Assembly (NCBI GenBank): GCA_009602725.1
Contig: WELB01000330.1
Location: forward strand, 65,044-86,746
From: Spirogloea muscicola
Lineage: Eukaryota; Streptophyta; Zygnematophyceae; Spirogloeales; Spirogloeaceae
Reading direction: 5' to 3'
DNA length: 21,703 nt
The notes under the pieces are model-generated. The model had not been told where the DNA came from, made no database searches, and was given only the letters and a program-made list of their open reading frames with translations. Below are positions 1 to 21,703 of the stretch, piece after piece (position 1 is the stretch's first letter; each line of letters starts with the position of its first letter). Made by a program: the position numbers and the translations under genes.

Positions 1-168
1 AGCCCAGCATCTCTGATCTGCGGCTGCTTAGCAGGGGTTACTGAGTGTCTCGTAGCAGCTTTGTTTCTGTTACTTAGCGCTTCCCCTGGCCCCCTTCTCG
101 TACTCTGTTCATTCTTTTTCGGGCTGGTTGTTCCAGCCCCTATTCTCAATGGGCGAGCACTTTCTTCT
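1..168 (+). repeat. 5'-truncated retrotransposon tail, copy 1
   Basis: The copy enters in the last codons of the family's ORF: positions 3-44 read PSISDLRLLSRGY then TGA. A 3' UTR follows with a perfect 7-bp hairpin, GGGCTGG-TTGTT-CCAGCCC, at 121-139. It ends in a pyrimidine-rich stretch (GGGCGAGCACTTTCTTCTTT) near 168, and no poly(A) is visible. The same segment recurs almost unchanged at 18338-18520 (+) and 21628-21455 (-), with two differences from the latter over about 150 bp. It is therefore a young, low-divergence copy. The window edge cuts it, so its true 5' limit is unknown. Confidence 0.8.
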
Positions 169-330
169 TTCCACCAGCTAGCTACTCGGATCTGCATCTC
201 CTGTCTAGAGGTTACTGAGCGTTCCCTGGCTGATGTCTTAGTCCTAGTCGTTCGCACTCTAGCTCCCTCAGACCATGTCCATTCTTTTGGGCTGGCCTTT
301 CGTTGTCTCGATGCCTAGCTAGTGTGTTTC
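169..330 (+). repeat. 5'-truncated retrotransposon tail, copy 2, abutting copy 1
   Basis: Directly after the end of copy 1 the sequence reads PPASYSDLHLLSRGY then TGA (216-218), the same C-terminal signature in a more diverged version. Its 3' UTR keeps the pattern of a TCAGACCATGTCCATTC stretch followed by GGGCTGGCC (about 270-295), but the second hairpin arm is lost. The right end fades near 310-330. Two tails lie head to tail with no spacer I can see. Confidence 0.65.
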
Positions 331-561
331 CCAGCCACCAGTCAATCTGGCCGCGCTTTCTTTCTCGTCTCCGACGTTCAAAACTTTCTTTTGCCTTGTC
401 TTGACTTCTCTCGGAAAAAGCACACCACGCTTCGCCTTACCCAATCCCTCGCCGCCGCCTGGAGGGGGCAGATTGCGGCCCGCCGTGGCGAGGCTCCGGA
501 AACGCCTCTGCCCAGCTGCCGGCTGCTGGCAGCACGGCCTGCGTACCCGCGGTTGTCGAGC
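331..561 (+). promoter_or_regulatory. 5' flank / leader of the LRR-RLK gene
   Basis: About 230 bp separate the retroelement tail from the first credible start codon. It is moderately GC-rich toward the gene. I see no TATA box or other core promoter element and cannot place the transcription start. The promoter may therefore overlap the upstream retroelement tails. Confidence 0.3.
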
Positions 562-6500: not shown

Positions 6501-8796
6501 GGAATGGTCAATCTGGACCTGAGCTACAACAGGTGCTGAGCTGTGACTGCATGGTCGATGCAGCTATAAGTTGCCTGATTTGCCATGTCAGCATATACAT
6601 GAATTGCAGAACAGCCACAGCTGGCATTCGTAGCGGCTCACTCTCAATGATTGGCAGGTTAAGTGGCCACCTGCCGCCTCAGTTGGGGAGACTTGTGCTG
6701 CTCAACCGGCTCTACCTTAGTGGCAACAGCCTCTCAGGACTGATCCCGACAACCTTCTCCGACCTGGAGAACTTGCAAGTGCTGGAGATGGACAGTAACA
6801 ACTTCTCTGGCCCATTCCCACAGTGGCTTGGCAACCTAAGCAGTGCATTGAGCATTTACTTAGATCACAACAACTTGACCGGAGGAGTACCTGCGAGCAT
6901 TCGAAGTCTGCAGAACGTTCAACTTCTTGACATCTCCAACAACCGCCTAACTGGCAGTCTCCCCCAGGAAATTGGAGAATTAAGCAAGCTTGTTACATTT
7001 TCGGCTGCAAGCAACTCATTCAGCGGGCCCTTACCGGAGCGCATCGGCAACTTGCCGAGTCTTATATATCTCGATCTTTCCAACAATAATCTCAATGGCA
7101 GCATCCCGGCGTCCTTCGCTAATTTGAGTCTTACTCGATTCTTTAACATCTCAAATAACAACCTCAGTGGCCCCATTCCTGGCGGCTCTATTGGTCAGTA
7201 CAGCAGCAGCTCCTTCTCTGGCAATGGCGCCTTGTGTGGCGGCCCTTACGTGGCCTGCAAGACAGCTCCCTCACCTCGTTCTCTTCCTCCTTCCCCACCA
7301 CCTCCAGTGCACAAGTCATCGAGCTTACCAGGGGGGGCAATTGCCGGAATTGTTCTTGGGGCTGCTGTTGTCCTTCTCCTCCTGTTGCTGGGACTGCTCC
7401 GGCTGTGTTGCTTGACTCGGAAGAAGGAGAAACTTATGACAGACAAGGAGCGGAGCATCGAGAGCTTCTGCTCCAAGTTGTCCATCACTCGAGATAGACT
7501 ACAAGCTCCCTTCACCTACGAGGAGCTCATGGTCGCAACTGAGGACTTCAATGACAACCACATTGTTGGTTCGGGCGGCTTTGGGATAGTCCATAGGTAC
7601 GTACATAACGGAAGCACAAGCTTTGCATAGGCTGGCCCTGCTTGCATTATATTACTTTCTTCTTCCTTGGTGTGTTTCCTTAGTGCTTGATGTCCCGATT
7701 GTTTTCATGTCCTATGGCTTGCACAAGTATACAGGCCACTAAGATGAAGTTGCTGAGCAGTGCACAGATGGAGGATGGCAAAAAGTATGCTGTGAAGAGG
7801 CTAGCACCAAACAGCACGCAAGGCATGAGAGAGGTCCAAGCTGAGGTGGAGACGCTGAGTCGCATCAGTCATCGCAATGTGGTTCCGCTACGGGGCTGGT
7901 ACATCCCCAAGGACAGCGACGTGGACATGCTGCTCATTTATCCTTTCTTGCCTGGGGGGAATCTTGACCAACTGGTGCACGGAGGAAAGGGCGTGCCTTC
8001 TAAGCCAGATGGGTTTGACCATTGGTCTGCGCGGAATAAAGTCATTTTGGGTGCGGCCATTGGGCTTAAGTACTTGCACCATGATTGCAATCCTCGGGTG
8101 GTGCATAGGGACGTCAAGCCGAGCAATATCCTCTTGGATGAGCAAGGTCAAGGTTGTGTGGCGGATTTTGGGCTTGCACGAACCTTTCAGGCACATGACA
8201 CGCACGTGTCAACCACGGCTGCAGGTGAGATTTCAAGCAATTGTGCTTTGTCATTGGCTTCTTTGGCATTATGCAAGGAGGATGAGCTTGCTGCACGTAT
8301 AATACATGCTGGTTGTGGCACCTCAGACTAACGGCCTCGTACAGAGAGGAATCAGAATTCATGCAACTCATGAACGCAACACCATGATTGCTGCATATCG
8401 GCAGGCACAATTGGATATTGGGCTCCAGATGGCGCTTTGGGCCAATATACTGAGCGAAGCGATGTCTTCAGTTTTGGAGTCACGATTCTGGAGACCGTCA
8501 CAGGCAAGCGACCTGTTGACCCTTTCTTTCGATCTGATACTGCAACTGGGTACAACTTGATCAGTTGGGTGCAATCATGCCTTCACAATGAGAAGCCTAT
8601 GGAGTGCATCGATATGGCTCTAGCTCCATTTGTTCCCCAGAAAGTCGACGAGTTGAAGGGAGCCTTAAAAGCAGGGCTATGTTGCTGTGCCAGTACTCCA
8701 AGTCAAAGACCACTGATGACTGAAGTTGTTAATATGATCCAGTACAATCTCCGCGCATTTGGTGCTGGTTTGGCAATTCCCAAGGTGCTGAGTTGA
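562..8796 (+). CDS. Leucine-rich-repeat receptor-like Ser/Thr kinase, 24 exons, 1,163 aa
   Basis: Predicted plasma-membrane receptor kinase that would bind an extracellular ligand through LRRs and signal through a cytoplasmic kinase. Exons: 562-644, 928-1071, 1362-1538, 1640-1711, 2109-2180, 2564-2635, 2836-2904, 3082-3156, 3300-3371, 3500-3571, 3781-3852, 4049-4120, 4361-4432, 4561-4632, 4791-4862, 4992-5063, 5224-5295, 5709-5780, 5942-6013, 6200-6268, 6461-6532, 6658-7596, 7761-8224, 8405-8796. They sum to 3,492 nt with no internal stop. Signal peptide about residues 1-25; N-cap with W-Y-G-I-V-C about 28-75; LRRs about 76-742; proline-rich 770-784; membrane helix about 790-817; kinase about 867-1145. 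Kinase landmarks: GSGGFGIV (870-877), K891, E907, HRD with D996, DFG with D1014, and APD where APE is usual. It is an RD kinase. The start at 562 opens a hydrophobic leader; a second ATG at 571 is also possible. Ligand and subfamily are unknown. Confidence 0.88.
690..757 (+). repeat. Possible retroelement 3'-UTR relic inside intron 1
   Basis: Within intron 1 (645-927, GTGAGC...GCGCAG), about 68 bp starting at TGTATGCACCTGGCTGG and containing AGCAGCCGCA resemble the 3' UTR of the retroelement tail at 14120-14187, which has TGTATGCATCTGGCTGG and AGCAGCCGCA in the same order and spacing. By eye roughly seven bases in ten agree. It is too short and diverged to be certain. Confidence 0.4.
1072..1361 (+). 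other. GC-AG intron 2 of the receptor kinase
   Basis: The exon end CCCAG is followed by GCAAGAG, which matches the usual context of the minor GC donor (AG then GCAAG). The acceptor is TACGTGCAG at 1353-1361. This joins the LRR N-cap to the first LRR in frame. GT donors nearby do not give an in-frame N-cap to LRR join. The other 22 introns I placed are GT-AG. Confidence 0.7.
3611..3700 (+). pseudogene. Decayed duplicate of the 3' half of LRR exon 11 in intron 10
   Basis: Positions 3611-3700 align, with scattered substitutions, to 3817-3906, which is the end of exon 11 plus the start of intron 11. The relic still reads RMLSTLILGYNE and keeps a donor (GA then GTAAGT at 3646). The 5' half of the exon, including an acceptor, is missing. 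Reading through from exon 10 hits TAA at about 3597, so it cannot serve as an exon extension. Downstream, GCGTAGCGCATC is shared by both copies, so the duplication included intron sequence. Confidence 0.75.
5464..5640. repeat. Palindrome and direct repeat in intron 17
   Basis: Intron 17 (5296-5708) is the longest intron. It holds a perfect inverted repeat with 14-bp arms, 5514-5527 and 5530-5543, separated by 2 nt; the right arm contains GTGTTGTATTTCTG. An extra GTGTTGTATT lies upstream at 5495-5504. The palindrome is bracketed by two imperfect direct copies of about 27 bp, each starting GTCTGT and ending GGCTCTGCT (near 5466 and 5612). This could be a small foldback element or a folded intron structure. 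Confidence 0.7.
6658..7596 (+). other. Exon 22: last LRRs, proline-rich spacer, membrane helix, glycine loop
   Basis: The longest exon (939 nt) encodes about seven more LRRs without introns. After these come a Cys-containing cap (ALCGGPYVACK), a proline run (SLPPSPPPPVH), one hydrophobic helix with a leucine run ending in RLCCLTRKK (stop-transfer basic residues), and the start of the kinase domain. Loss of introns here contrasts with the single-LRR exons upstream and looks like a fused or retroposed segment, but that is inference. Confidence 0.85.
7761..8796 (+). other. Exons 23-24: receptor kinase catalytic domain
   Basis: Exon 23 (7761-8224) supplies the ATP-binding Lys (AVKRL), SHRNVVPLRGW, the catalytic loop VVHRDVKPSNILLD and ADFGLAR. 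Exon 24 (8405-8796) supplies GTIGYWAPD, RSDVFSFGVTILE, the subdomain XI Arg (SQRP) and a short tail ending IPKVLS. I chose the acceptor at 7760 because it continues GFGIVH directly into SAQMEDGKKYAVKRL, the usual length between glycine loop and Lys. An earlier in-phase acceptor at 7727 would add 11 residues. Confidence 0.85.
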
Positions 8797-9650
8797 CCAA
8801 TGCAGTGGGACTGATGCCACCCAATATTAGTTCTGCTTATTTCGTGGATATGTCATTTTTAGCTAAATACCTTAGCAACAGCAGTGACTCACATGAGACG
8901 CCTGGCATTGAACCTCTGATACTGCAAAGTGGGTGCACTATTTACCAGGTCTCCATGTGCACGGCCCCCTGGCTTCACTTGCCCTGCTGTCCATCTTTAG
9001 CACGATAGCAAGAAGCAGGAACTGGGTGGCACTAAGAAGTCCAGAAAGTGGGTGATGAGTTGAAGAGAGGGAGAGAAATAGACCGTATTGATGGCGAGCG
9101 TAAGAATATACGAGGTGACAGAAAGCGAAGAGAAGTCGGACAGGCAGCCGGAGAGTTATGGATAGTGAGACCGAAGTATGAGAGGATAGTCAGCTTTCTA
9201 GGCTCGGTAGCAAAATGGCCAGCGCATCGCACACGTGTTATACCCAGTCTGCTGCAGTGACTACACGGCTGAATATCACAACACACACTTGTAGTCGTTG
9301 TCATTGTGAAAGTAATTTACCACTACCTTACGCACTGCTTGTTATTGATCAGCGGTGTAGAGAACGGAAGTGGCAAGAAGCAGGTCAATGGAGACCCTTG
9401 ATGGAGAAATGAGCGACCTGATCTCAAGAAAGACGCTGGGTTTGCGCATGCTTCCCGCTGACCGCATGTCTTTACATGAGATAGGAATTATCAACTATCA
9501 TGGCGGAGCTTTGGGCGGGGCAAGGGCTGTCAATGCTAGGGTCGATCCTTTGAGCCGTGGGCAACAGGCCTGCCGAGGTGTGCACTGCAGGCTTCCCCGC
9601 CGGACGCGTCTCATCCTCCGAGTTCATTGTTTGCCTTCTTCTTACAAAGG
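8797..9650. other. Intergenic; no gene seen
   Basis: This presumably starts with the 3' UTR of the receptor kinase, but I see no clear poly(A) signal. Positions 9028-9190 are purine-rich (AGAGAGGGAGAGAAATAGA and similar) and give a 70-codon frame of mostly charged residues that resembles nothing I know. I see no RNA gene. Confidence 0.5.
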
Positions 9651-9654
9651 CGAG

Positions 9655-9827
9655 CCTTCAGCGGCTCTCACAAAGAGGAGCGTGTCAGCAGTTGTGAGCT
9701 CAAAACCAATGCTTTGCACCAAGGCTGGACGAGCTTTATCTGGTTGCAGAAGGGCTTGGGATCTGCTGTCCGGTTTTCGAGCATCACTCAGCGACCTCTA
9801 CTTGTTGACCTCGTTGTCCCTGAGATG
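9655..9827 (+). repeat. Retrotransposon C-terminal tail fragment, + strand
   Basis: The + frame reads KAGRALSGCRRAWDLLSG and then SLSDLYLLT. This matches the tail of the long - strand copy near 20013-20130 (KAGLALVGGRRASSLPSG, then ISDLYVLTRGY). One extra base after LLT destroys the usual RGY-stop. The 200-codon frame around it (9370-9972) has no other recognisable content, so I treat it as a decayed fragment and not a gene. Confidence 0.65.
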
Positions 9828-9989
9828 CGTGTCAGCTTACCAGCTCAGCTCCAATCCGGGACGGCTCATGGTACTCTTGCATGCTACTGTCAGCGCCTGG
9901 AAGGCCCCAGGCCTCCTAAGAAAACTTCGATTTGCTGCCCAAAACTTGACGAAGTTGCTGGATAGGCTGTAGGGATGGCGTGTATATTG

Positions 9990-10200
9990 AGTGATGGAGG
10001 GCCTGAGTGGCCAAGTACAGAGGCAAGCACATGACAAATGTACATCACATGCTGCTAAGCTGACCCGCTCAGTAAGCACGAGTCAGCACGTAGAGGTCGC
10101 TACTTGATACCCGAACACCGGACACCAAGTGACGAGCCCTTGTACCACCAGCTAAAGCTTGACCAGCTTTCTGGTGCTGGAAGGGTGCCAGGGTCTTTGC
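9990..10200 (-). repeat. Retrotransposon tail, - strand, facing the previous copy
   Basis: On the - strand, VSSSDLYVLTRAY then TGA (stop complement at 10069-10071) is followed by a 3' UTR. The whole block aligns with 19941-20130, another - strand tail, including GACCCGCTCAGTAA and CCAGCTTTCTGGTGC. With the + copy at 9655-9827 it forms a tail-to-tail inverted pair. Confidence 0.7.
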
Positions 10201-10359
10201 AAGTATGTACATAACAGCAAGTCACTAGCAAAGTAGGACGACAGAGGTCGAAGTTGTCCGATGTGTTTCTAATAGAGGAGCACTTAGAATAGAGCAAGTG
10301 ACGATAGTCAGCATAACAGTGGGCTCATGTCTGTAAGTGAGGGACCACCGGGACCACCC

Positions 10360-10852
10360 TTGTGGCGAGGTCTGTCCCATTGAGACATGCTGTCTGTACT
10401 TTCGAAAATGTAGTGCGTCACTTCTCTATGCCGACTGTGCCAGGTTGGGCGACACATCTGCGGAGAAGAGGAAGGAGCGACATTATTAGGACCAACCCCA
10501 GGGCGACCGCTTCTTCCCATGTGCCATGGACATATATGGCGGCTACAAAACGAAGTGGTCTTTCCTCCTCCATCGCCTGGCACAGCATGTCGATGCCTGC
10601 CGGCGTAGTCGGGCGGGTAGCTTAGGGCATTGTAGCGTCCCGCAAGCCATCGTTGTCTGCTATAGAATGCGGCTATCATTGAGTCTACAGCGCTCCCTGG
10701 CACTTGCGATACACCAGCGAGCTGGGCGTGCATTAGGCCAGGCTAATGGCTTCCGTGGTGGTGGTCTGGCTCCTCAGCTTAGCTTGTCTTATATATATGT
10801 GCTCACTCGAGGATATGTAGTGTCGCCCTTTGCCAGCTCATTACCCCGTTAG
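10360..10852 (+). pseudogene. Retrotransposon C-terminal fragment, + strand
   Basis: From about 10661 the frame reads YRMRLSLSLQRSLALAIHQ, RAGRALGQANG and SYIYVLTRGY, the family tail. The stop codon is lost (the next codons read VV). The upstream part (10360-10660) contains an Arg-rich stretch and SDIIRTNPR that could be the remains of the endonuclease region, but frames change and I cannot align it with confidence. Confidence 0.6.
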
Positions 10853-10859
10853 CAGGACA

Positions 10860-11404
10860 TCTGTAAGGCTAGCATTGGCCTCCCTTTCAATTTCATGCGC
10901 ACCACGCGCCTTCTCTCTGCAGGACAGTCTACTGTCGAAAAGAGTAAGCACGGACGAGCTTGCCTTGCAACTGTGCCGACTTGGTGACCGGTCAGCATAG
11001 TCCTGTCTGGGTAAGGCTCTTTAACGGCCGGTCTGCCTGGTGGTTCAGCCTGTGCCCTTTGGCGCAGCGCGCGATGCTCAAACGACGCCTGCTGGTGCAA
11101 CGCGGGTGGAGGCGGCACTGGTGACCCTAGGTCAGACCCGTCCCAAGCAAGCAAGAGACTGGACCGAGTGGACTACTCGTTCCCAGGACCATCTTCTCCC
11201 TTATGCTCGATCACTCAAAGATTTTGTTTTGAATCTACTAACTAGAGATAACTGAGAGCCCCCTTGCTGCCATCTTAGTACTTCGTACCTTGCTTTCTGC
11301 GCCAACCGGCTCCTTCTGACCTTGTCCATTCCTTGGGGCTGGCCCCTCAAAGAACCACAAGGTGTGTTGGGCTGAGCCCCGTTTGGAAGAGCTTACTTTT
11401 ATAT
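10860..11404 (+). repeat. Decayed retrotransposon tail and 3' UTR
   Basis: A frame ending LLTRDN then TGA (11253-11255) resembles the family end LLTRGY. The following CTGACCTTGTCCATTCC, GGGGCTGG and GGAAGAGCTTACT (11310-11400) match the 3' UTR type at 19090-19262. The part before about 11200 is unassigned; I see no known domain in it. Confidence 0.45.
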
Positions 11405-11574
11405 TCCTTTGGGTGAGCCGTCTGTCAGGATCGACTTCCTAAATTCCCAATAGTCGTTGCAGCCTAGGACCATCACTTTCACAAATCACCTACCATTATC
11501 CCGCCACTGCCTAGCCGCAACCGCCCAACCACAATTTGTCAAAGTGGATAAAAGCTGTTGGAGCCGGCTTCTGG
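11405..11574 (+). repeat. Repeat family B, left half (interrupted copy)
   Basis: Starts CCTTTGGGTGAGCCGTCTG and aligns with 16602-16763, including CCTACCATTATCCCGC and TTGGAGCCGGCTTCTGG. Similarity stops exactly after CTGG at 11574 and resumes at 13285. The family's function is unknown. Confidence 0.8.
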
Positions 11575-13284
11575 ACGTCTCAATCACCGCAGGCTACTCG
11601 TCTGCCTGGGTGCCAGACTCCCCCAGGCGGCCTCATCATCCTGGGATTCCCCCTCGGAAGGCCGTCTTTTGTCGACGGGCAACTGCGTGACCGGCTCCAG
11701 GAGTATTACCAACCGGTGGCCCGCCTCCCCGAGCTGCAGGACATGCAGCTGGCGCTTGCCATGCTCACCAGATGCATTGTGCAGCGTCCCCACCACCTGG
11801 CGCGGACGACCCTCCCTGCCGCCGAGACGCTGGAGGCCTACGCCACGTTCGACGCGGGCGTCATGGAGAGCGTGATGGCCCTCATCCGTCACACGGGCTT
11901 CCTCGACTCGCCAGCTGCGGCGCTCCAAGCCACTCTGCCCCTCGGCCGTGGCGGCCTCGGCTGCCGCTCGCTCGCTCGCATCTGCAGGCCAGCGTTTCCT
12001 CGGCAGTTGGGCCCAGGTCGCCACGTCGGTGGCGCAGCGCTTCTCCCATGATGGGCGGCCCCTGCTGCAATAGGCTGTGCGGAGGTGGCGACCGGCTCGT
12101 TGCCCTTTCAGGTGGCGCTCCGCTCCGCTCAAGACAATACACTTGCGGAACACGCTGCCCTCGCAGAGAGCGTGGTCCCGTTTGCCCACCTTGCCCATTT
12201 CACCGACTCGCAAACGCAGGCGCGTTACATGGCGGCAGTCGACAAGGCGCCCTTTACGGCCACGCTGCAGCTTCTCCCTGCAACCGACGTGCGCGGCCAT
12301 GCTCAATTGCTGTCGGCCGCCTCTCCCGGCGCGGCAGCCTGGCTCTCCGCGCTCCCCCTGTACGATGCCCTCAGGATGGCGGATGAGCTATTCCGAACGG
12401 CCACCCATCGCTTTTTGGGTCTTCCCCCGCCCTGTCTGCTCGGCGTGCTGCATTGTGAGTGTGGGGAGCGGTCGACAGACCCGGCGGAGCGCAGCGTATA
12501 TCCTCCGCTGCGCCACTGGAGGCGAACATACACCTGCTCACGACCTCCTCCGTGATGCAAGGTTCGGCATCTTCCAGGAGGCCGGATACACGGTTGCGAT
12601 GGAGAACACTTCCATTATGCCAATTCTCCAGAGGGCCGACGGACTCCACACACGCCGAGTCGACCTGGTGACGTCCACACCGGGAGACGGCGCGCGCATC
12701 ATTGCTGATGTGGTCACCACTGATGTGGTCGACCGCTTCAACCCGGTGCTCTCTGCCTCGCGGGCTGGCCATGCTGCGGCGAAGGCGGCTCGCAGCAAGG
12801 CGGCCAAATACGCCGACCACCCGGCTGCAGATGAGTTCGTCCCCCCTAGAGGACGTGCACGGGGCTCTTGGGTCCCAGTGGCTCGACCTGCTGGCCAGGC
12901 TTGCGCGGCGCGCTGTGTCTGGCAGACGCAGCGAGCCGGCTGACTTCAGCGCCGCTGGCTGGTAGGCCCAAGTCTATTTATTGTATGAGATTGTCGGTCT
13001 CCCTTCAGCGGTCCCATGGCCCAAGCCTTGCCTCTGCGTGCTGGCCGTGCTCTCGCTGTGGCCTCCGGCGTTCGTCAAGGGGATAGTTTTCCGGCAGCTA
13101 GTCTGTCGGATTTGAGGCTCCTCACTCGTCACTATTAAGTGGTCCAACCTCCCCCCGTTTTGACATAGCCCCTTACGTGACTGCGAAGCGGTTTTTGGCC
13201 CCTTCGAACCTTTATCAAGATACTTTGGGCTAGCTTTTCACAGCCCTTGCCCCCATTGGGAGTGCCACATCTTCTTTGAGCAAT
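11575..13284 (+). pseudogene. 5'-truncated non-LTR retrotransposon: RT end plus C-terminal endonuclease
   Basis: Remains of a retroelement polyprotein. The first frame carries GGLIILGFPLGRPSFVDG and LPLGRGGLGCRSLARI, typical of the region after the reverse transcriptase palm. A frameshift near 11990 leads to FLGSWAQVATSVAQRFSHDG, then a stop near 12071, then a frame to CECGERSTDPAE. Another shift near 12480 leads to ILRCATGGEHTPAHDLLRDA, RRVDLVTSTPGDG, IIADVVTTDVV and a Lys/Ala-rich AAKAARSKAAKYAD. CxCG...C followed by HD-x-LRD and two Asp-containing strands is the arrangement of C-terminal restriction-like endonuclease domains in some non-LTR elements. The tail reads MRLSVSLQRS (12990), LSDLRLLTRHY and TAA (near 13137), then a 3' UTR with GGGCTAGC...CAGCCC. 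It is dead: frameshifts and stops break it throughout. Confidence 0.82.
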
Positions 13285-13390
13285 GCGGGTGGCAGGATGG
13301 GTCTGAGCACCGATGCCATTTGTGGCACTGCCAGAGGCTATATGCCTCGATTGAAGCTAAGCTGGAGGTGCCCTGCTTGCGACTCCTTTC
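13285..13390 (+). repeat. Repeat family B, right half
   Basis: Begins GCGGGTGGCAGGATG and aligns with 16764-16863, including TGCCTCGAT, AAAGCTAAGCTGGA-like and TGCTTGCGACT. It continues the left half (11405-11574) without loss or gain relative to the uninterrupted copy. Confidence 0.8.
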
Positions 13391-13451
13391 GATGTTCCCG
13401 CCCCTTTGGACGAAAAGGGGCGATGTTCCCGCCCCTTTGGACGAAAAAAAA
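13390..13451. repeat. 31-bp tandem duplication
   Basis: Two copies of a 31-bp unit starting CGATGTTCCCGCCCCTTTGG lie side by side and differ only near the end, where the second passes into a run of A. The unit is absent from the sister family B copy, so it arose after the copies separated. Confidence 0.9.
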
Positions 13452-13486
13452 TTTGGGCTGGCTTTTCACAGCTCTTCTTTCCTTTG

Positions 13487-13914
13487 GGAGATGTACTACT
13501 TCTCTGCTTTTTCAACATTAGACAAGAATAAGAGACCCCCTTATATGACGACAGGTGCAGCCCGTCACTATCCTTTCAAATCTACAGAAAAGAGCCACCG
13601 ACAGGTTATTGCACGACAAGGCATGCATAGGGACCCCGAGTGGTGGCTCCTGGTATGCTGAGGGCGATAAGTCTTGCCAATGTCCTCCGGATGCTCAACC
13701 TCCGGCATCCTCCTCAACGTCCTGAGACACCAACCTCCTGCTGCTGCCACAAGCTTAGCCAGTGCCCCCCGTACGCCTTGCTCGCGGGGTCAACCCCGGC
13801 GAGCTTTGTGTAGTGGCCATCGCCGCACGAGGCGGCGGCCCGACAGCCCGGAGTCAACGGGGCCCACGCGGCCCGGAGTTTCGGCACAGCCCGCCTTGAC
13901 GCGTGATTCCTCAG
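13487..13914. repeat. Repeat family A, copy 1
   Basis: Aligns over its whole length with 17880-18296 and in part with 17285-17589. Shared landmarks are GAGCCACCGACGGG-like, GCACGACAAGG, CTCAACCTCCGGCATCC and CATCGCCGCACGA. On the - strand a stretch near 13665-13730 resembles the - strand retroelement at 20821-20885 (both give LRRxxE and TLARL or SLARL). It may thus derive from the reverse-transcriptase end of a - strand copy, but that is tentative. Confidence 0.75.
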
Positions 13915-13959
13915 CAAGCTGCCCCGCCCGGGGGGGCTGCCCTTAAGGTCCTTCGTCTC

Positions 13960-14275
13960 GTTTCTCCCCCTTTCTTCGGCCCTTGTCGCGCCCTTGCAGC
14001 AGCCTCTGGTCTGCGCAGCGGGGTTGCTCTCCCTCCCCTCAGCTCATCTGACTTCCTACTGCTGACACGGGGGTATTGAGGGCGCCCTGTCTGCCTACCC
14101 TTGGCTCCGTCATATACACCTGTATGCATCTGGCTGGCAGTTTACAGCCAATTCTTTAATATCAGCAGCCGCATTCTCCCTTTGGCACCTCTTTCTTTAG
14201 CTGTGGACATTGTTCATTCTTTTTGGGCTGGCTTTGCCAGCCCCTCTACGGGCGAGCACTTTCTTCTCTCTTCCT
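13960..14275 (+). repeat. Retrotransposon tail with hairpin, + strand
   Basis: Reads ALAAASGLRSGVALPP then SSSDFLLLTRGY and TGA (14077-14079), an intact family C-terminus. The 3' UTR carries a perfect 8-bp hairpin, GGGCTGGC-TTT-GCCAGCCC, at 14225-14243, then GGGCGAGCACTTTCTTCTC, the usual end. Confidence 0.82.
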
Positions 14276-14440
14276 TTCGGGCTGGCTGTTCACAGCTCAA
14301 GAGGAGATATTCAATACCCAGTGGCTACTTGAGACGCTGTGTGCTTAACGCTCTTCTGGCCCCTTCGAATTCATTCATTCTTTTATCCTGGGCTGGCCAG
14401 TCACAGCCCTCTACTGGAGAAGTCTTTGTTCTCACAGGCC
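14276..14440 (+). repeat. Decayed retroelement 3' UTR piece
   Basis: Contains TTTCGGGCTGGCTGTTCACAGC, a degenerate tail end (CCCAGTGGCTACTTGAG near 14318), GGCCCCTTCGAATTCATTC and GGGCTGGCCAGTCACAGCCC, the usual 3' UTR order, on the same strand as the previous copy. Confidence 0.5.
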
Positions 14441-14455
14441 CCGCCCCTCCTGGGA

Positions 14456-14640
14456 GGAAGAGGGGCTGGCAAAGCGAAGAGGGGCTGGCAAACCCAGCTC
14501 AAAAAGAATGTATAATGTCCACAGCCAAAAGTAGAGGTGCCGAAAAAGGACTACACTACCAAACACGACAACGCTCTGGGGAAGCTCAGTACCCGCGAGT
14601 TAGCAACATCAGGTCGGAGTAGCTCGTTGCCGGGAAGGGT
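14456..14640 (-). repeat. Retrotransposon tail, - strand, convergent with 13960-14275
   Basis: On the - strand FPATSYSDLMLLTRGY ends in TGA (complement at 14586-14588). The UTR runs down through ACATTATACATTC and GGGTTTGCCAGCCCC. A 19-bp tandem pair starting GAAGAGGGGCTGGCAAA occupies about 14457-14494. The two UTRs meet tail to tail. Confidence 0.72.
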
Positions 14641-15909
14641 GTAACACTTCAAGGCGGCTTTCCCGCATCACGTGGCAGTACTGTCTCAGTGGATAAAATC
14701 ACATGTGAAGCTGTGTCATCTCTAGATGTATGTACAAAGGGCTGCCATAGATTTGGCAGACTGGCTATGATGTGGGTGACAAGTGGCGTGTGTGCCACCG
14801 CATCCTTGCTTGGCGCTGAACCATGTGTGCATTCTCGTCAATTTGGTAATTGTCGCTTGTATTTCACAAGGACTTTCCCTGTGTAGCAGCTATCGGCTGT
14901 ACTGCGAGTCAGCACGGGCTTGCCGAGACCAATCAGACTTGTATGAATTGGGCTCTCATGTATTAACGCCCAACCCAAGCTGGCTCTATGCCCGTGGAAG
15001 TTGTGGACTTTGTCGTGAGATCAGTACTGTGTAATACCTCAGCATGGGTGGCCCCTGCTTTGGTACTCACCTTGCCATACCTCTGGTGTTGGCGGCTGGC
15101 GCGCCCTCACCTTGTTTTGTGCGTGGGCACACTCCAAATCCTGGAAGCCTATGGTGCTTGGCACTGTAGTGAGATGAGGACTGTGGCTGGCCGCCATCCT
15201 CAATGGCCTAGTGGCCTATGTGGCCCTGGTCAGTAGCACCTCGGTGTTATCTACTTCCAGTACAAGTGCACGGCTCTCCATAGCTGTTGATGACGTAATC
15301 ACGGCAACCGGCTAAGTTGGTGTGCTGAGGCAGGGTCGGCGAATGTTGTCAATGCCCCCTGCAGCACCCGCTGCCTGGAACTCTCTTCGCTTTTGTACTC
15401 TCTGCGGTGCTTACGTGTCAAGCCACGTGAACCGGGTATGGACGAGACAAGGTGTGGCTCTGTGTCCTGCTCGAGTGGTCTGTCTGTAAGCCCGCATGCT
15501 GAGTAGTGATGATTGCGCAATTGGCCCAGCTATGTGCCTGAGTATCTCTGTGCACTCGAGGTGTATAAGCTGCCGACATAGGATGCCTTCAGCTGGCCAG
15601 TGTATTTTGGGTACTCTGGGTGACTGCTCATCTCTGCCTTTGGTCGTCAAAGGGTTGACTTGCATGGGATTAGCTTTCAGCATTCTGGCAAGCTGAGCTG
15701 GAAGGCTGTTCTTGAAGACGTACTCTCACATGAAACCAGCTTTGGCTGTGTATCTCATTGTGATGATGCGCAGAGTCTCGCCCTGACTCTGTTGTGAGTG
15801 TTGTATTCTCACGTGGTGTAACTCTTGACGATTGTCGTGTGGTGCACCTATCCTGTGACGTCCTGATCCCTAAACACGCAGTCAGTGGTTAGTATGTCCT
15901 TATTGAGTT
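14641..15909. other. No feature recognised
   Basis: About 1.27 kb with no long frame of believable composition, no similarity to the repeats elsewhere in the window and no RNA gene I can see. It may be unique intergenic DNA or an older element worn beyond recognition. Confidence 0.4.
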
Positions 15910-16550
15910 CAGACCTAGGGGGTTTAGGAACTAACCCCCCACATAGTGGAGCGCCAAAGCACACGGTGCCCTCAAATGCATCACATAGCACAGCGGACGT
16001 CTTACCCTGAGGCGCCGCCAGAAGGCGGCGACTCTACAGAGGGTCTGAAATAGTAGCTGGCCCCAGATGGGGCGCAACCGTGGCACTAATGGAGAGCCGG
16101 CGATGTCCGCAGCGATGGGCTGCGGCGACGGGCTGGGCAGCAGACGGCAGCAGCAGAGCTGGGGCGGCGGCTGCGGCAGCAGGCAAGCAAGGCTATGCCT
16201 CTCTCTGGGCGTCACTGGTCCGACTAAAGAGTCTGGCCTACTACTTATAGCGTTCCACCTGCCACCCCTCCACGGAGGGTGTGACGAGGGCAGCCCCAAG
16301 GTCCGACCCCCCGGAGGAGCGGACCCGCACAATGGGGATACGACTGGCGCGGGTAGCCCCCAAGGTCCGGCCCCTGGAAGAGCGGACCTGCACAACGAGG
16401 ATACAGGGGGGCGTGCCGCGCGTACTGCGGGCTGCGCGTGGCGCGAGCCTGACGAGTGGGATACAAGTCCAGGGGACTGGCGCGTGCCGCGCGTGACTGG
16501 CGCGTGACTGGCCCGTTAAGCGCGTGAAGCCGTTTACCGGGACCGTTTGG
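15910..16550. repeat. GC-rich block with 64-bp tandem repeat
   Basis: Opens with an imperfect stem, GGGGGTT at 15918-15924 against AACCCCC at 15933-15939. From about 16060 it is strongly GC-rich. Units 16287-16350 and 16351-16414 repeat with a 64-bp period (AAGGTCCG at 16298 and 16362), and a partial third lies near 16453-16483. Short GACTGGCGCGT repeats follow to 16515. Long frames exist on both strands here, as expected of GC-rich DNA, without recognisable domains. Confidence 0.65.
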
Positions 16551-16595
16551 CTCATTCAAACTGGCTCGTGCAAACGGGCGGACGTAACGGTTCTC

Positions 16596-16926
16596 TTCCT
16601 TTGGGTGAGCCGTCTGGCAGGGGTTGGTCCCCTGAATTCTATATGGCCGGTGTAGCCTGGACCATCACTTTCACAGATCACCTACCATTATCCCGCTGCT
16701 GCCTAGCCACCCGCCCAGCCACAAATTGTAAGGTGGATAATACCTGTTGGAGCCGGCTTCTGGGCGGGTGGCAGGATGAGTCTGAGCACAGATGCCACGT
16801 GGCACTGGCAGATGGGATGTATGCCTCGATCAAAGCTAAGCTGGATGTGCCGTGCTTGCGACTTCCTTCTGTAAACCGGCCCCTTCGGAGCTTGTGTATT
16901 CTTTTCGGGCTGGCTTTTAATTCCTA
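16596..16926 (+). repeat. Repeat family B, uninterrupted copy
   Basis: Contains both halves of family B in one piece: CTTTGGGTGAGCCGTCTG at 16602, CCGGCTTCTGG ending at 16763 and GCGGGTGGCAGG from 16764. It ends with CCCCTTCGGAG and TCGGGCTGGCTTTT, the retroelement 3' UTR pattern. One frame gives DGMYASIKAKLDVPCLRLPS, which I do not recognise. Confidence 0.8.
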
Positions 16927-17284
16927 GCAGTGATGCTCTAATACTCAAGCACACTACATGCAAGTGGCTGTGCAACACTTCATGGTGTGAAGTAGTAGCG
17001 GTGCAGTGCTGAAGATCGAATAAACGTAGCCAGAATAATATAGAGATGCTCATAGACTTTGACGAGGGCTCAAGTCAGATTTCCAAACTGAATCACCACC
17101 CTCCTGAAATTTCAAGTACTGAGTATTAGATCCGAAGCACGACGTGATCTCTACGTTCACTGGCTGCAACTAGGACAGTGGCGGATGATTGAGTGGCGCA
17201 ATCACCTCCCCCAGTCTGACATTGGCAGCATGAGGACATGTAAGACTCACAGCCGTCGCCCCCTTCAAAATGTAGTACTACTCT
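16927..17284. other. No feature recognised
   Basis: About 360 bp with no frame worth calling and no similarity to the other repeats. Confidence 0.4.
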
Positions 17285-17589
17285 GTTTCGTTCAGACCAG
17301 AGCAGAATATGAGTCCCTCTTGTATGTCAACAGCAGCCTCGTAGTATGTTCATGCGTGTAGCCAGTCACCAAGCTCGTCAAATTCGCAGTAACGAGCCAC
17401 CGACGGGATATGGCACGACAAGGGCGTGCAAGCGACCTCAAGTGGTGGCTCCTCGATGCGGAGAGATGAATCTTATCAATGTCCTCCGGATGCTCTCACC
17501 CTCCGGCATCGTCCTCAACGACTTTCTTCTCCCGAGACACCCACCTTCTGCTGCTGCCACAAGCTTTGCCTGTGGACCCGTACGCCTTG
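17285..17589. repeat. Repeat family A, copy 2 (partial)
   Basis: Shares ACGAGCCACCGACGGGATAT, GCACGACAAGGGCGTGCA, TCCTCCGGATGCTC and CTGCTGCTGCCACAAGCTTT with copies 1 and 3. It stops at the CGTACGCCTTGCTC stretch near 17589, where the retroelement tail begins. Confidence 0.75.
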
Positions 17590-17875
17590 CTCCCTCGCTC
17601 ACGCCGTCCACTCGCGTGCAGGCCGTGCTATCGTTGCTGCTTCCGGGTTTCGTCTGCCTGCATTGTTTCCAGCTTCGAGCTATTCTAACCAGATGCTGCT
17701 CACCCGCGGGTATTAAGCTTCCTGTGGTTCCGTCGTGTGTAGTTGTCTAGATGCCTAGCTGTGTAATTCCCTTCTTTCCGGCACCTGTTGTGGCTCTTTG
17801 GTGTTTTTGTGCATTCTTTTTTGGCTGGCTTTTGCCAGCTCCTCTTTTCTATGGGCGAGCTCTTCTTCTTGCCCC
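17590..17875 (+). repeat. Retrotransposon tail with hairpin, + strand
   Basis: Reads SLAHAVHSRAGRAIVAASG, FPASSYSNQMLLTRGY and TAA near 17714. The UTR follows, with hairpin GGCTGGC-TTTT-GCCAGC at 17823-17839 and the GGGCGAGCTC end. Confidence 0.82.
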
Positions 17876-17879
17876 CTTT

Positions 17880-18296
17880 GGAAGAGTTACTACTTGTCTG
17901 TTTCTTCAACGCCAGACCAAAGTATGAGTCCCCTTATCTGTCCACGCGTGCAGCCCGTCACCATCCTTGTCAATCTACAGTTACGAGCCACCGACGGGAT
18001 ATCGCACGACAAGGGCGTGCATAGAGACCCAAAGTTGTAAATTCTGGTATGCTGAAGGAGATGGATCTTGCCCAAATCCCTCCGGACGCTCTCAACCTCC
18101 GGCATCCTCCTCAACGTCCTGCGACGCATACCTTCTGCTGCCACAAGCTTAGCCCGTGCCCCTTGTACGACTTGCTCGCGTGGTCAACGCCGCCTAGGTT
18201 GGCGGCGCGGCCATCGCCGCACGAAGTGGCAGTTGGGGTCATTGGGGCCCACGCGGCCAGGAGTCCCGGCATAGCCGCCTTGACGCGTGATCCTCC
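17880..18296. repeat. Repeat family A, copy 3
   Basis: Full-length match to copy 1 (13487-13914), starting GGAAGAGTTACTACTTG and ending CCTTGACGCGTGATCCTC. As in copy 1, it follows a retroelement 3' UTR and precedes another retroelement tail. Confidence 0.78.
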
Positions 18297-18299
18297 TCT

Positions 18300-18530
18300 T
18301 TGCCTCTGGCTCTGGCCAGGGGACCCACTTCCAGGAGCCCAGCATCTCTGATCTGCGGCTGCTTAGCAGGGGTTACTGAGTGTCTCGTAGCAGCTTTATT
18401 TCTGTTACTTAGCGCTTCCCCTGGCCCCCTTCTCGTACTCTGTTCATTCTTTTTCGGGCTGGTTGTTCCAGCTCCTATTCTCAATGGGCTTTCTATGGGC
18501 GAGCACTTTCTTCTTTTTCCTTTTCGATTC
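18300..18530 (+). repeat. Young retrotransposon tail, + strand
   Basis: Reads ASGSGQGTHFQEPSISDLRL and LLSRGY-stop, then a UTR almost identical to positions 45-168 and to the right-end copy. Hairpin at 18456-18474 with one arm mutated (CCAGCTC). A 12-bp partial duplication inserts an extra TTTCTATGGGC before GAGCAC. Confidence 0.85.
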
Positions 18531-18602
18531 CTCGCTGCTAGCCGGAGAGGCTGCTCTTTGTGGTCCTTCTCCTCAAGGTCCTTCTGAAAATTCACTTATT
18601 GC

Positions 18603-18725
18603 GCGCTTTCGACTTGTGGCTGCTGACTTAAAGTTACTATGATCTTCCTATGTGGTACTTGCACCTCTTGCTGGCGTCTTGGAGACTAGTATCCTGCTTT
18701 TTGCGCAATTCGGCCCTTTCAGACG
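18603..18725 (+). repeat. Decayed retrotransposon tail, + strand, interrupted
   Basis: CGACTTGTGGCTGCTGACTT followed by AAAGTTACTATG is a worn SDLxLLTRGY end. The UTR has TCTTGGAGACTAGTATCCTG and GGCCCTTTCAGAC, also seen at 19077-19127. The - strand copy 18727-19070 separates the two matching stretches. Confidence 0.5.
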
Positions 18726-18726
18726 T

Positions 18727-19070
18727 CAGCAAGTGGGCGCTCAATAACCTATGCACTCTGGTCAGCACGTGCAAGTCAGAAGAATTGGAGGGTAGGAAAG
18801 CGCCGCCGTGATGAACCCGGGGGCAGCAGCCAAGGCGCGGCCTGCACGCAAGTGGACGGCAAAAGCTAAGGACCGCTGCAGGGAGAAGGCGTGCGGAGCG
18901 CATGAACTAAAGAAGAAGGGCTCGCCCATTGAGGATAGGGGCTGAGAAAGCCAGCCCAAAAAAGAATGTACAAAGTACGAGAAGGGGGCCAGAGAATAAA
19001 GGGAGGCCAATACAAGCCAACACATTGTTTAAGGAGATGGCAAGGCGCATCCTGTACACTTGAGCAAGCG
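18727..19070 (-). repeat. Two joined retrotransposon tail pieces, - strand
   Basis: Reading the - strand: VYRMRLAISL (near 19050), then a 3' UTR with GGGCTGGCTTTCTCAGCCCC and the GGGCGAGCCCTTCTTCTTT end at about 18905. After this comes a second C-terminus, FSLQRSLAFAVHLRAGRALA, ending near SDLHVLTR with a broken stop. The second piece starts right at the end of the first. Confidence 0.68.
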
Positions 19071-19119
19071 ACCCGACTGTCTTGGAGACTACTATCCTGC
19101 TTTTGGCGCCATCCGGCCA

Positions 19120-19445
19120 TTTCAGACCTTGTAACATTCCTCTGGGCTGACTCTCACAGCCATTGCCGAAAATTGGAAGAGCTAATTCTTCTTCTTCAGA
19201 CCTTGTCCACGCCTTTGGGCTGGCCTCTCACTGCCATTGCTGTGATTTGGAAGAGCTTATTCCTTGCCTATCTGTCTCAGCCCTTTTTGGCCCCTTCGGA
19301 CCTTGTCATTCACGGCGGGCTGGCTTTTCACATTGTAACCTACAATAACCTTCTCACAGCTCTCGCCCTCTTTGGTCCTCTTGGCCACTCAGGCCCTCCA
19401 TTGCTTATTAGACGCTCCATTTTGCTTTGGAAGAGCTCACCTCTT
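19120..19445 (+). repeat. Array of GGGCTGG-core UTR units
   Basis: Units with the order CAGACCTTGTCCA, TTTGGGCTGGCCTCTCAC(A)GCC, a short spacer and TTGGAAGAGCT recur at 19123-19190, 19197-19262 and, expanded, 19293-19440. The same unit is at 11310-11398 (+), 19765-19850 (-) and twice in 20930-21015. They look like amplified retroelement 3' UTR segments. Confidence 0.65.
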
Positions 19446-19548
19446 GTTGTGCGTCCATTTGCAGAAGCACTAGCTCACAGGATTCACGAAGAGTAGTTTC
19501 GTTAATTTGCGCTTGCCGGCCATTCCAGCCCTTGTTCAGTCCTTCTGG

Positions 19549-19700
19549 GCCTCACTCAGTGAGTACTAAGCTTCCTCTGCGCCGTCTCTTGTCTGGCTGT
19601 GTAGTTTTACTTTTCGGCACCTTTTTCGCTCTTTGGATTCTGTCCGTTTTTTTGGGGCTGGCCTTTTCCAGCCCCTCTTCTCTATGCGCGAGCCTCTTCT
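19549..19700 (+). repeat. Retrotransposon tail with hairpin, + strand
   Basis: CTCACTCAGTGAGTACTAAG matches the LTRGY-stop junction at 17699-17716, with TAA at 19567-19569. The UTR holds a perfect 8-bp stem, GGGGCTGG (19654-19661) and CCAGCCCC (19668-19675), then GCGCGAGCCTCTTCTTTT. Confidence 0.72.
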
Positions 19701-19754
19701 TTTGGGCCGGCCACTCAGCCCTTTCAGCCCTCAGAGCTTCTTCTTGGGCTGGGC

Positions 19755-19850
19755 CAGTCAACATCAGGAAAGAACAGCTCTTCCGAGTTGTCAGGAGTGG
19801 CTGTGAGAGGCCAGCCAGGCCAGCCCAAAGGAATGGACAAGGTCTCAAAC
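19755..19850 (-). repeat. GGGCTGG-core UTR unit, - strand
   Basis: On the - strand: GACCTTGTCCATTCCTTTGG, GCTGGCCTGGCTGG, CTCTCACAGCC and CGGAAGAGCTG. Same order as the + strand units at 19120-19445. Confidence 0.6.
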
Positions 19851-19899
19851 ATCGCTCTTCATTGATAAATGTATTGTTCTGTTATTTCTGTCGGGCTGG

Positions 19900-20965
19900 C
19901 CTTTCACATTGATAGAATTTTGTGTATTTGAAACAAACAAAGGCCACAATGGCCAAGCACAAAAGCAAGCACATCTAATGACGTACATCACCTACAGCAG
20001 ATTGACCCGCTCAGTAACCACGGGTCAATACATAAAGGTCACTAATCAATGCCTGAATACCAGATGGCAGACTCGAAGCCCTTCTGCCACCAACTAGAGC
20101 TAGCCCAGCTTTCTGGTGCAAAGCATTAGCCTGAGAACGCTGCAAGCAGGCCGAAAGTCGTCGTCGCAAGAACGACAGATATGCAGCTGGCAAGCCCATC
20201 TCAGCCGGAAACACATCTGCACGTCGTGCATAGCCTAGATTGGCAACATTCTGAAGAAGTGTGGAAGCGAGGACCTAAATAGCCAAAGATATCGCCTGCA
20301 GCTGGCAGTAGCTCATCGCACTGGGGGTAAACGAAGTAATGCAGCAGCTTTCTGTGTCCTGCACTGCCCACTGTGTGGCCAGCGATGTGCGTCGATGCTG
20401 GACCTTCATAAGCCTCCGTAACAACAATATTAACCAAGGCCCGTGGTCCTCCACCCGGTTGCACGCCCACAATGTAAAAGGTGCGGCGACAATGACGTCC
20501 CTGGGCATCCGTGGAGGTAGGCATGATGTTTACTTTTCACGACCGCACGGTCACCTGCGTCGTGCATCAAACTGGCCAGGGCATCGCGGAGGAGGTTGCG
20601 GATGCCCACCACTTCCGGTCCAGTGGGGCATCGCAGCATGTGAGTGGTGAGCTCGGCACCCTCTGCACGGAAGCCACAGTCACATTGGCGCACTCAAATC
20701 AGACAGGTGGGAGGCCGAGGAAGAGTTGATCTAGCGTCCGCAAGGCCTCGGAACTGATGCCGGAAGCATTGGCAACGCGTGTGAGGCAACCCAGTCGGTG
20801 GCACCAAGTGTGGCCCGAGAAGTAAGTCTTGCCAGGCTCCTTGGATTGTACTGAATCTCTGACAGCCTCCTCAACGCTCTGCAGCGCTCAACTTTCTCTG
20901 CCGCGACCAGTCTGGACTGTGCCCTTCCGACAATGGAAGAGCATTTGTCTTTCACAGCCCTCACC
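19900..20965 (-). pseudogene. Second long retrotransposon copy, - strand, endonuclease region
   Basis: Reading from 20965 downwards: ALRRLSEIQYNPRSLARL and LGATDWVASHALPMLP (reverse-transcriptase end), CDCGFRAEGAELTTHMLRC (CxC...HxxxC finger), RNLLRDALASLMHDAG, then in other frames RRTFYIVGVQPGGG, VNIVVTEAYE and PQCDELLP. The copy closes with RRRLSACLQRSQANALHQKA, ISDLYVLTRGY and a stop at 20011-20013. It matches copy 11575-13284 block by block. Where that copy has RRVDLV and ADVVTT, this one has RRTFYIV and VNIVVT, so both presumed acidic residues are gone. At least three frame changes break it. The UTR continues to about 19900 and ends at AGGCCAGCCCGAC. Confidence 0.8.
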
Positions 20966-21015
20966 CCCTTTGGAAGAGCTCACTCTCTTTCACAGCCCTC
21001 GCCCCATTGGAAGAG
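20930..21015 (+). repeat. Tandem UTR-type units of about 35 bp
   Basis: TCTTTCACAGCCCTCACCCC then TTTGGAAGAGCTCAC is followed at once by CTCTTTCACAGCCCTCGCCC then ATTGGAAGAGTCC, a two-unit tandem with period of about 35 bp. Confidence 0.75.
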
Positions 21016-21454
21016 TCCGTTTCATTCACACACAGCAGAAAAAGTACTCGCCCGTAGAGGATAGGGGCTGGGAAAAGCCAGCCCAAATAGCATCAACAAG
21101 GTTCGAAGGGGCCAGGGAAAGCGCTGAAGCTAGCACAAAGGAAACCAAGCAGCTATTACACACTCAGTCACCCCTGCTAAGCAGCCGCAGGTCAGAGAAC
21201 TGGGCTCCTGGTAGCGGGTTTTTTGGCTAGGGCCAGAGGCAGCAGCGAGGGCACGACCGGCACGCAGATGCAGCGCGCGAGCCATGGACCTCTGCAGCGA
21301 GACGGACAAGCGCATGCGGTACACCTGCGCGAGCGAGCCTGCTGCAAGGAAATCTTACCGGCTCCCCATGGTATCGGCGGGAGATGGCGTGAGAGCTGGT
21401 TGAGCATCTCGAGCCACTGAGCGCTCAACGCTCCGTGGGTGTCGATGGCGAGCG
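21016..21454 (-). pseudogene. Retrotransposon C-terminal fragment, - strand
   Basis: Starting at about 21454 the - strand reads FPLAIDTHGALSAQWLEMLN, matching the HGALGSQWLDLLARLA stretch of copy 11575-13284. After a frame change it continues FLAAGSLAQVYRMRLSVSLQ, LHLRAGRALAAASG and, after a 1-nt deletion relative to sister copies, the LRLLSRG region. The UTR runs through GGGCTGGCTTTTCCCAGCCCC to about 21030. It starts exactly where the next copy's UTR ends. Confidence 0.75.
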
Positions 21455-21703
21455 GGAAGAAGAAAGTGCTCGCCCATTGAGAATAGGGGCTGGAACAACC
21501 AGCCCGAAAAAGAATGAAAGGAGTACGAGAAGGGGGCCAGGGGAAGCGCTAAGTAACAGAAACAAAGCTGCTACGAGACACTCAGTAACCCCTGCTAAGC
21601 AGCCGCAGATCAGAGATGCTGGGCTCCTGGAAGTGGGTCCCCTGGCCAGAGCCAGAGGCAGCAGCGAGGGCTCTGCCGGCACGAAGGTGCAGCGCCCGGG
21701 CCA
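21455..21703 (-). repeat. Young retrotransposon tail at the right edge, - strand
   Basis: Reading from the edge: ARALHLRAGRALAAASG-type frame (LHLRAGRALAAASG), QGTHFQEPSISDLRLLSRGY and TGA, then the UTR with hairpin GGGCTGG-TTGTT-CCAGCCC (21505-21487) and the CACTTTCTTCTT end. Nearly identical to copies at 1-168 and 18338-18520. The window edge cuts it. Confidence 0.85.

Follow-up and report, generated by a model that had tools for sequence, protein, structure and literature searches.

A probable pile-up of decayed LINE-type 3' ends in a stretch of Spirogloea muscicola DNA

The right half of a 21,703-nucleotide stretch of Spirogloea muscicola DNA (contig WELB01000330.1, positions 65,044 to 86,746; hereafter the window) is probably a pile-up of decayed ends of long interspersed nuclear elements (LINEs), retrotransposons without long terminal repeats (non-LTR), whose protein would close with a zinc-knuckle, the domain of a restriction-like endonuclease (RLE) and, after it, a conserved C-terminal tail. 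This reading is drawn from a coding tail and a 3' untranslated region (UTR) module shared among copies, from fronts truncated at many different points, from one clean insertion that has an uninterrupted counterpart and from the presence of at least two lineages. The element is of an ordinary kind; its packing against itself is unusually tight. The features are collected in Table 1.

The tail had been noticed in a reading of the letters alone (the sequence-only reading), which placed it at ten or more sites on both strands. Six-frame translation of the whole window gave 11 matches to SDLLLLTRGY-stop with no more than three substitutions in 11 positions, and 100 dinucleotide shuffles gave none, which rules out a chance match. 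Nine of the matches lie after base 9000, all inside 9655-21703, and two at the start of the window. With four substitutions allowed there were again 11 matches (shuffles: mean 0.07, maximum 2), and a LHLRAGRALAAASG-like block was matched six times at five or fewer substitutions, where shuffles averaged 0.03 matches each. The stops located in this way include those ending at 17716 (+) and 21582 (-). Inspection of the reading frames, together with alignment of the DNA, added three decayed copies, at about 18887-18744 (-), 10661-10819 (+) and 9721-9822 (+); in the last two no stop follows the tail, and 10661-10819 ends in LTRGY. With decayed copies counted, the tail stands at 12 places inside 9655-21703, in agreement with the number first claimed.

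Alignment at the DNA level of 14 tail copies revealed the tail in common, a stop in most and a common 3' UTR in many. These 14 tails, like the pairs used for counting mismatches by codon position, were selected by us. Among divergent tails the mismatches at positions 1, 2 and 3 numbered 50, 41 and 85 (four pairs, 122 codons; chi-square p 1e-4), and two further overlapping pairings gave 50/33/85 (p 4e-6) and 41/35/66 (p 0.003); the three pairings share copies and are not independent, and the frameshifted copy T08 was kept outside the totals. By this third-position excess the tail is the end of a genuine protein. Pairs within lineage B, which is described below, displayed scant bias (7/11/12, 13/7/12 and 7/7/11), as is expected where copies have decayed after insertion. 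One might instead regard the tail as a mere shared DNA repeat that reads LLTRGY by accident and never ended a protein. Many copies are indeed frameshifted or bear stops, several tail copies among them, and certain related copies are similar at the DNA level. The third-position excess disfavours such an explanation, however, and the domain upstream of the tail is similar as protein in two lineages where blastn gave no DNA alignment; we find the idea hardly credible.

Upstream of the tail, the two longest copies, at 11575-13284 (+; T03) and about 20684-20011 (-), carry a CxC...C finger and a nuclease-like domain, as the sequence-only reading had stated. T03 passes, in changing frames, from a thumb-like stretch through the end of a linker, the knuckle, the nuclease-like domain and the tail into the 3' UTR. 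Its first part, 11580-12055, reads by eye like the thumb of a reverse transcriptase (RT), and it had no match in Pfam or PDB. The RLE-like domains of the two copies are identical at 26 of 79 positions (33%, E 3e-10, in a single comparison). T03 possesses KX2KY, in the form SKAAKY at 12794-12820 (+); at this place the lineage B copy reads KLLHY (20306-20356, -), the second lysine having been lost. The catalytic motif peculiar to the RLEs of LINEs is described as KX2KY, located in the second helix (PMC5678591). The putative RLE identity is drawn from motifs and domain order. Our analysis retains the earlier proposal of a non-LTR-like element with a C-terminal RLE, present mainly as 5'-truncated copies, of which the tail would be the coding end.

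Several results weigh against this assignment. In place of the PD...D core T03 has VD...D, and lineage B has Y and N, with both acidic positions lost; both are dead copies. The knuckle is of the CCHC type, with the spacing CX1CX11HX3C in the sole readable copy (20613-20684, -), whereas the published form is CX2-3CX7-8HX4C, and the end motif is GXXW (GSQW and SAQW) rather than GXW. No RT palm was detected by Pfam in the six frames of 9001-21703 with stops masked. A simple pattern for the catalytic box had two matches across the window (3057-3071 and 15283-15297, both +), in contexts neither of which is readable as RT, and by our reading T03 starts just past the place of this box. The sequence-only reading had called the element RT-encoding outright; with no palm found, reverse transcription is something that we infer. 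Neither Pfam, PDB sequences nor a fold search gave support to the thumb or the RLE. The AlphaFold models were poor and uninformative, with a mean predicted local distance difference test (pLDDT) score of 38.8 for the thumb-like stretch and 47.4 for the nuclease. The nuclease model has the order helix, four strands, helix, with the motif helix present only in this low-confidence model, and Foldseek found no PDB match for it at E <= 0.001. Furthermore, target duplication is absent at T03, the one clear insertion, and the GGGCTGG-type stem discussed below is the best hairpin in just 11 of 24 module stretches.

A match of the nuclease piece to the repeat protein Hax3 in PDB (4osz; whole-sequence E 2.6e-08) was set aside: no single stretch passed the limit, and we take the value to be made up of weak repeat matches added together. 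The remaining seven entries of that search, together with the other PDB searches, gave nothing below 0.02. The Pfam entries UPF0524 (E 0.51) and Synapsin_N (E 0.16) were dropped as chance.

The 3' UTR module is about 100 nt long, with a stem GGGCTGG...CCAGCCC in the better copies and an end like GGGCGAGCACTTTCTTCTT. A profile iterated on its own matches recovered 23 modules at E <= 0.01 and 25 at E <= 0.05, whereas 20 shuffled windows gave two at the looser limit; the tract from 302 to 11299 is free of modules. In a comparison by stem score, which took 24 of the 25 matches and widened the limits of some, 11 of the 24 stretches and 13% of letter shuffles scored at least 8.5. Nine of the 23 modules stand 37-121 nt after a tail stop, while for the other 14 the 150 nt upstream contain no such stop. 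The module is consequently a better tag than the tail, to which the sequence-only reading had given that role. Ends lacking the tail, the contrary case named in that reading, were encountered in part, in these 14 modules; at least one of them (18990-18901, -) keeps the start of the tail farther up, at 19077-19030, and judging by this remnant is a deletion rather than a tail-less element.

Seen from the side of the tails, nine of the 14 have the hairpin module within 150 nt downstream and five do not, namely three of lineage B (ends at 20011 -, 10069 - and 9822 +) and two that are decayed (18744 - and 10819 +). Lineage B, the second lineage, has its own 3' UTR. At least two lineages have the tail in common and differ in their 3' UTR, forming one broad kind with several families. 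The earlier claim that one family accounts for the right half is not supported in that form, since the lineages share the tail and not the 3' UTR, and since the module also follows the heads of two repeats, C and E. Lineages are connected by the tail, and copies with their presumed passengers by the module; a single family is defined by neither of the two on its own. Separately, the opposite-facing lineage B 3' ends at 9716-9844 and 10051-10177, which are 75-76% alike, form a large inverted repeat just downstream of a receptor-kinase gene.

Insertion of one copy into another repeat is clearest at T03, around which repeat E is split. The flanks are 82-83% alike on each side to the uninterrupted copy of repeat E at 16596-16918 and meet, around the 1,710-bp insertion, at TGG|GCGGG, where one or two G could belong to either side. 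Nested in repeat C in a similar manner is the subfamily A copy at 18301-18520, with 65/79 aligned bases in the left flank and 63/82 in the right, the latter a weaker alignment with gaps. Over ungapped stretches the subfamily A copies (1-154, 18336-18489 and 21472-21625) show 98-99% identity (98.3% for 21454-21625 against 1-172), so this lineage was active recently.

The modules also abut one another. After base 11300 there are 21 modules, among which four same-strand and two facing neighbour pairs are separated by -10 to +15 bp; in both facing pairs the 3' ends meet. When two weaker matches are included the same-strand pairs become six and the facing pairs remain two. Abutting pairs thus make up six of 20 neighbours, compared with a mean of 0.72 for random placement, in which six was never reached in 20,000 placements; for same-strand abutting pairs alone the random mean is 0.45 (P 0.0008). 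The placements cover 11300-21703 and disallow overlaps, while observed pairs were accepted with as many as 10 bases in common, and both the nesting (two insertions) and the excess of abutment come from one window.

Such packing could also have been produced by local tandem duplication, or by template jumping of the RT in one event, instead of by new copies inserting into old ones. The same-strand abutting modules do occur in period-like arrays (74-bp at 19121-19262 and 37-bp at 20934-21015), and the R2 protein is described as jumping between templates at low levels in vitro (PMC10499050). Neither process simply gives the two of six abutting pairs that face each other with their 3' ends meeting, however, and nesting is clear in two cases, T03 within repeat E and the subfamily A copy within repeat C. 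We consider this explanation of the packing quite plausible, while leaning away from it; for the same-strand pairs tandem duplication and template jumping are alternatives to new-on-old insertion.

The heads of repeats C and E gave mismatches by phase of 30/26/21, 19/16/14 and 14/17/12 (C) and of 9/7/6 and 4/5/7 (E), all from gapped alignments with small counts. As coding parts of the element they were rejected, codon bias being absent, a result that the small counts make suggestive only. An origin from tRNA was rejected, no tRNA having been found, as was one from a known small RNA, Rfam at E <= 1 yielding three microRNA families far below their gathering scores. We infer that repeats C and E are non-autonomous passengers; alternatively, repeat C could be a chain of separate insertions.

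Because two published motif details are not matched, the window element is placed only provisionally, on its recognisable motifs, among the RLE LINEs (R2, R4, NeSL, HERO, CRE; Utopia), which, Dualen aside, are described as numbering five clades until the addition of Utopia (PMC4640811). It resembles them in the order of a knuckle and a C-terminal RLE-like domain, in KX2KY, in copies that are single-ended and 5'-truncated, and in lacking target duplication at one site. It differs in the knuckle and end motif, as detailed above, and in carrying an extra conserved tail after the RLE, ending LLTRGY.

Dualen (RandI) of green algae, compared by description only, likewise has a C-terminal RLE in a green-lineage LINE (PMC3636483, PMC8226300). 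The window element may itself be Dualen-like, with an N-terminal apurinic endonuclease as well and the C-terminal RLE as an extra; the 3'-end mechanism would then be the same and the nicking enzyme could differ. Dualen is described as carrying both nucleases, the apurinic endonuclease and the RLE (PMC3636483), and as occurring in green algae (PMC8226300), and the host of our element has a plant-type receptor kinase. Parts upstream of the thumb are nevertheless absent from every copy seen, and Pfam detected no apurinic-endonuclease domain in the six frames of 9001-21703. We regard a Dualen-like element as doubtful and keep to the provisional placement among RLE LINEs.

In behaviour the window element recalls Zepp and the Zepp-like LINEs of Chlorella, Coccomyxa and Chlamydomonas. 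Zepp is described as inserting in nested fashion into existing copies, with 5' truncation, to give arrays mostly of 3' ends (PMC8226300), and the window likewise has nested 5'-truncated copies and clustered 3' ends. Zepp is, however, an L1-type LINE, whereas the window element is seen without RT, and no membership is claimed. Searches for outside relatives found none in viral contigs, bacterial and archaeal genomes, plasmids (one piece) or phages (one piece), non-eukaryotic collections in which silence says little. Our literature search, which left most subscription papers outside, met with no direct account of such LINEs in streptophytes.

In its left 9 kb the window, which is eukaryotic and plant-like in character, has parts of a gene for a leucine-rich-repeat receptor kinase that introns seem to interrupt, with leucine-rich-repeat and kinase domains at about 700-8800. 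Among solved structures the kinase stretch is best matched by plant BRI1 (E 2.1e-36), which makes a plant-side (streptophyte) host likely, PDB being a biased yardstick. Inside the gene region is a 92-bp direct repeat (3611-3702 and 3818-3909, 79% alike). Near the start of the gene a 57-bp stretch at 685-740 is similar (77%) to 14120-14176, in the 3' UTR after the tail ending at 14079, hinting at a further LINE end near the 5' part of the gene. A minisatellite-like stretch at 16282-16516, with a 60-bp pair 82% alike and an 11-bp array, is separate from the LINE ends.

Table 1. Copies, repeats and modules in the window, in order of position.
Feature	Position	Strand	Remarks
Young subfamily A, tail end and 3' UTR module	1-178	+	Cut by window start
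Further tail SDLHLLSRGY-stop and partial module	175-301	+	Directly after subfamily A copy
Lineage B tail remnant	9708-9844	+	Inverted relative to copy 9975-10177
Lineage B 3' end	9975-10177	-	Tail SDLYVLTRAY-stop
Tail copy YRMRLSLSLQRS...YVLTRGY	10661-10819	+	No stop following
Repeat E copy 1	11404-11574 plus 13285-13509	+	Split by T03
T03, longest copy	11575-13284	+	1,710 bp inserted into repeat E, truncated at the 5' end; runs from thumb-like stretch into 3' UTR; frameshifted
T03 thumb-like coding stretch	11580-12055	+	Reads in more than one frame; translations read by eye
T03 linker end and CxC...C knuckle	12385-12511	+	Frame changes inside
T03 nuclease-like (RLE-like) domain	12545-12914	+	RRVDLV...ADVV, SKAAKY (KX2KY), HGALGSQW; last part in other frame
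T03 coding tail to stop	12985-13138	+	Tail matches and alignments
T03 3' UTR module	13189-13283	+	Module search
Repeat C copy 1	13471-14269	+	Head without codon bias, then tail (stop ends 14079), module
Tail SDLMLLTRGY-stop and module	14444-14618	-	Tail match, module search
Repeat E copy 2, uninterrupted	16596-16918	+	Ends in partial module
Repeat C copy 2	17274-17869	+	Head, then tail (stop ends 17716), module
Repeat C copy 3, head	17876-18300	+	Interrupted by subfamily A copy
Subfamily A copy nested in repeat C	18301-18520	+	Repeat C on both sides
Decayed tail copy	18744-18887	-	Just downstream of module of copy 18901-19077
Tail start (VGSLAQVYRMRLAISL) directly into module	18901-19077	-	Module search, translations
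Three 3' UTR modules head to tail	19107-19332	+	Repeat and module searches
Lineage B copy	20011-20684	-	Knuckle CDCG...HMLRC, RLE-like domain, SDLYVLTRGY-stop; frameshifted; without hairpin module
Two partial modules in a row	20946-21032	+	Repeat and module searches
Older copy	21031-21455	-	End of RLE-like domain, frameshifted tail, module
Subfamily A copy, tail and 3' UTR module	21451-21703	-	Cut by window end

We propose that the protein of the element would bind the 3' UTR of its own RNA, probably via the hairpin, and that the RLE would nick the target. Reverse transcription would then proceed from the 3' end of the RNA (target-primed reverse transcription) and usually halt early, and it is by this early halting that the tail and 3' UTR would survive. 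A far more specific proposal, which we think improbable in its entirety, is a streptophyte RLE LINE with an odd knuckle and a C-terminal extension. Such an element would insert by preference, in both orientations, at 3' ends left by earlier copies of itself; through the shared module it would also mobilise non-autonomous repeats, two at the least, and it would build Zepp-like arrays by means of a different nuclease.

What had been unreadable repeats become a readable history, in which the tail, the 3' UTR module and the uninterrupted counterpart of the insertion site show how the copies came about. As a practical probe, the module could lead to full-length copies of the element and to its passengers. 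Should the host be a streptophyte and the element indeed prefer its own 3' ends, the window would represent a second route, by another nuclease, to array-building of the Zepp type.

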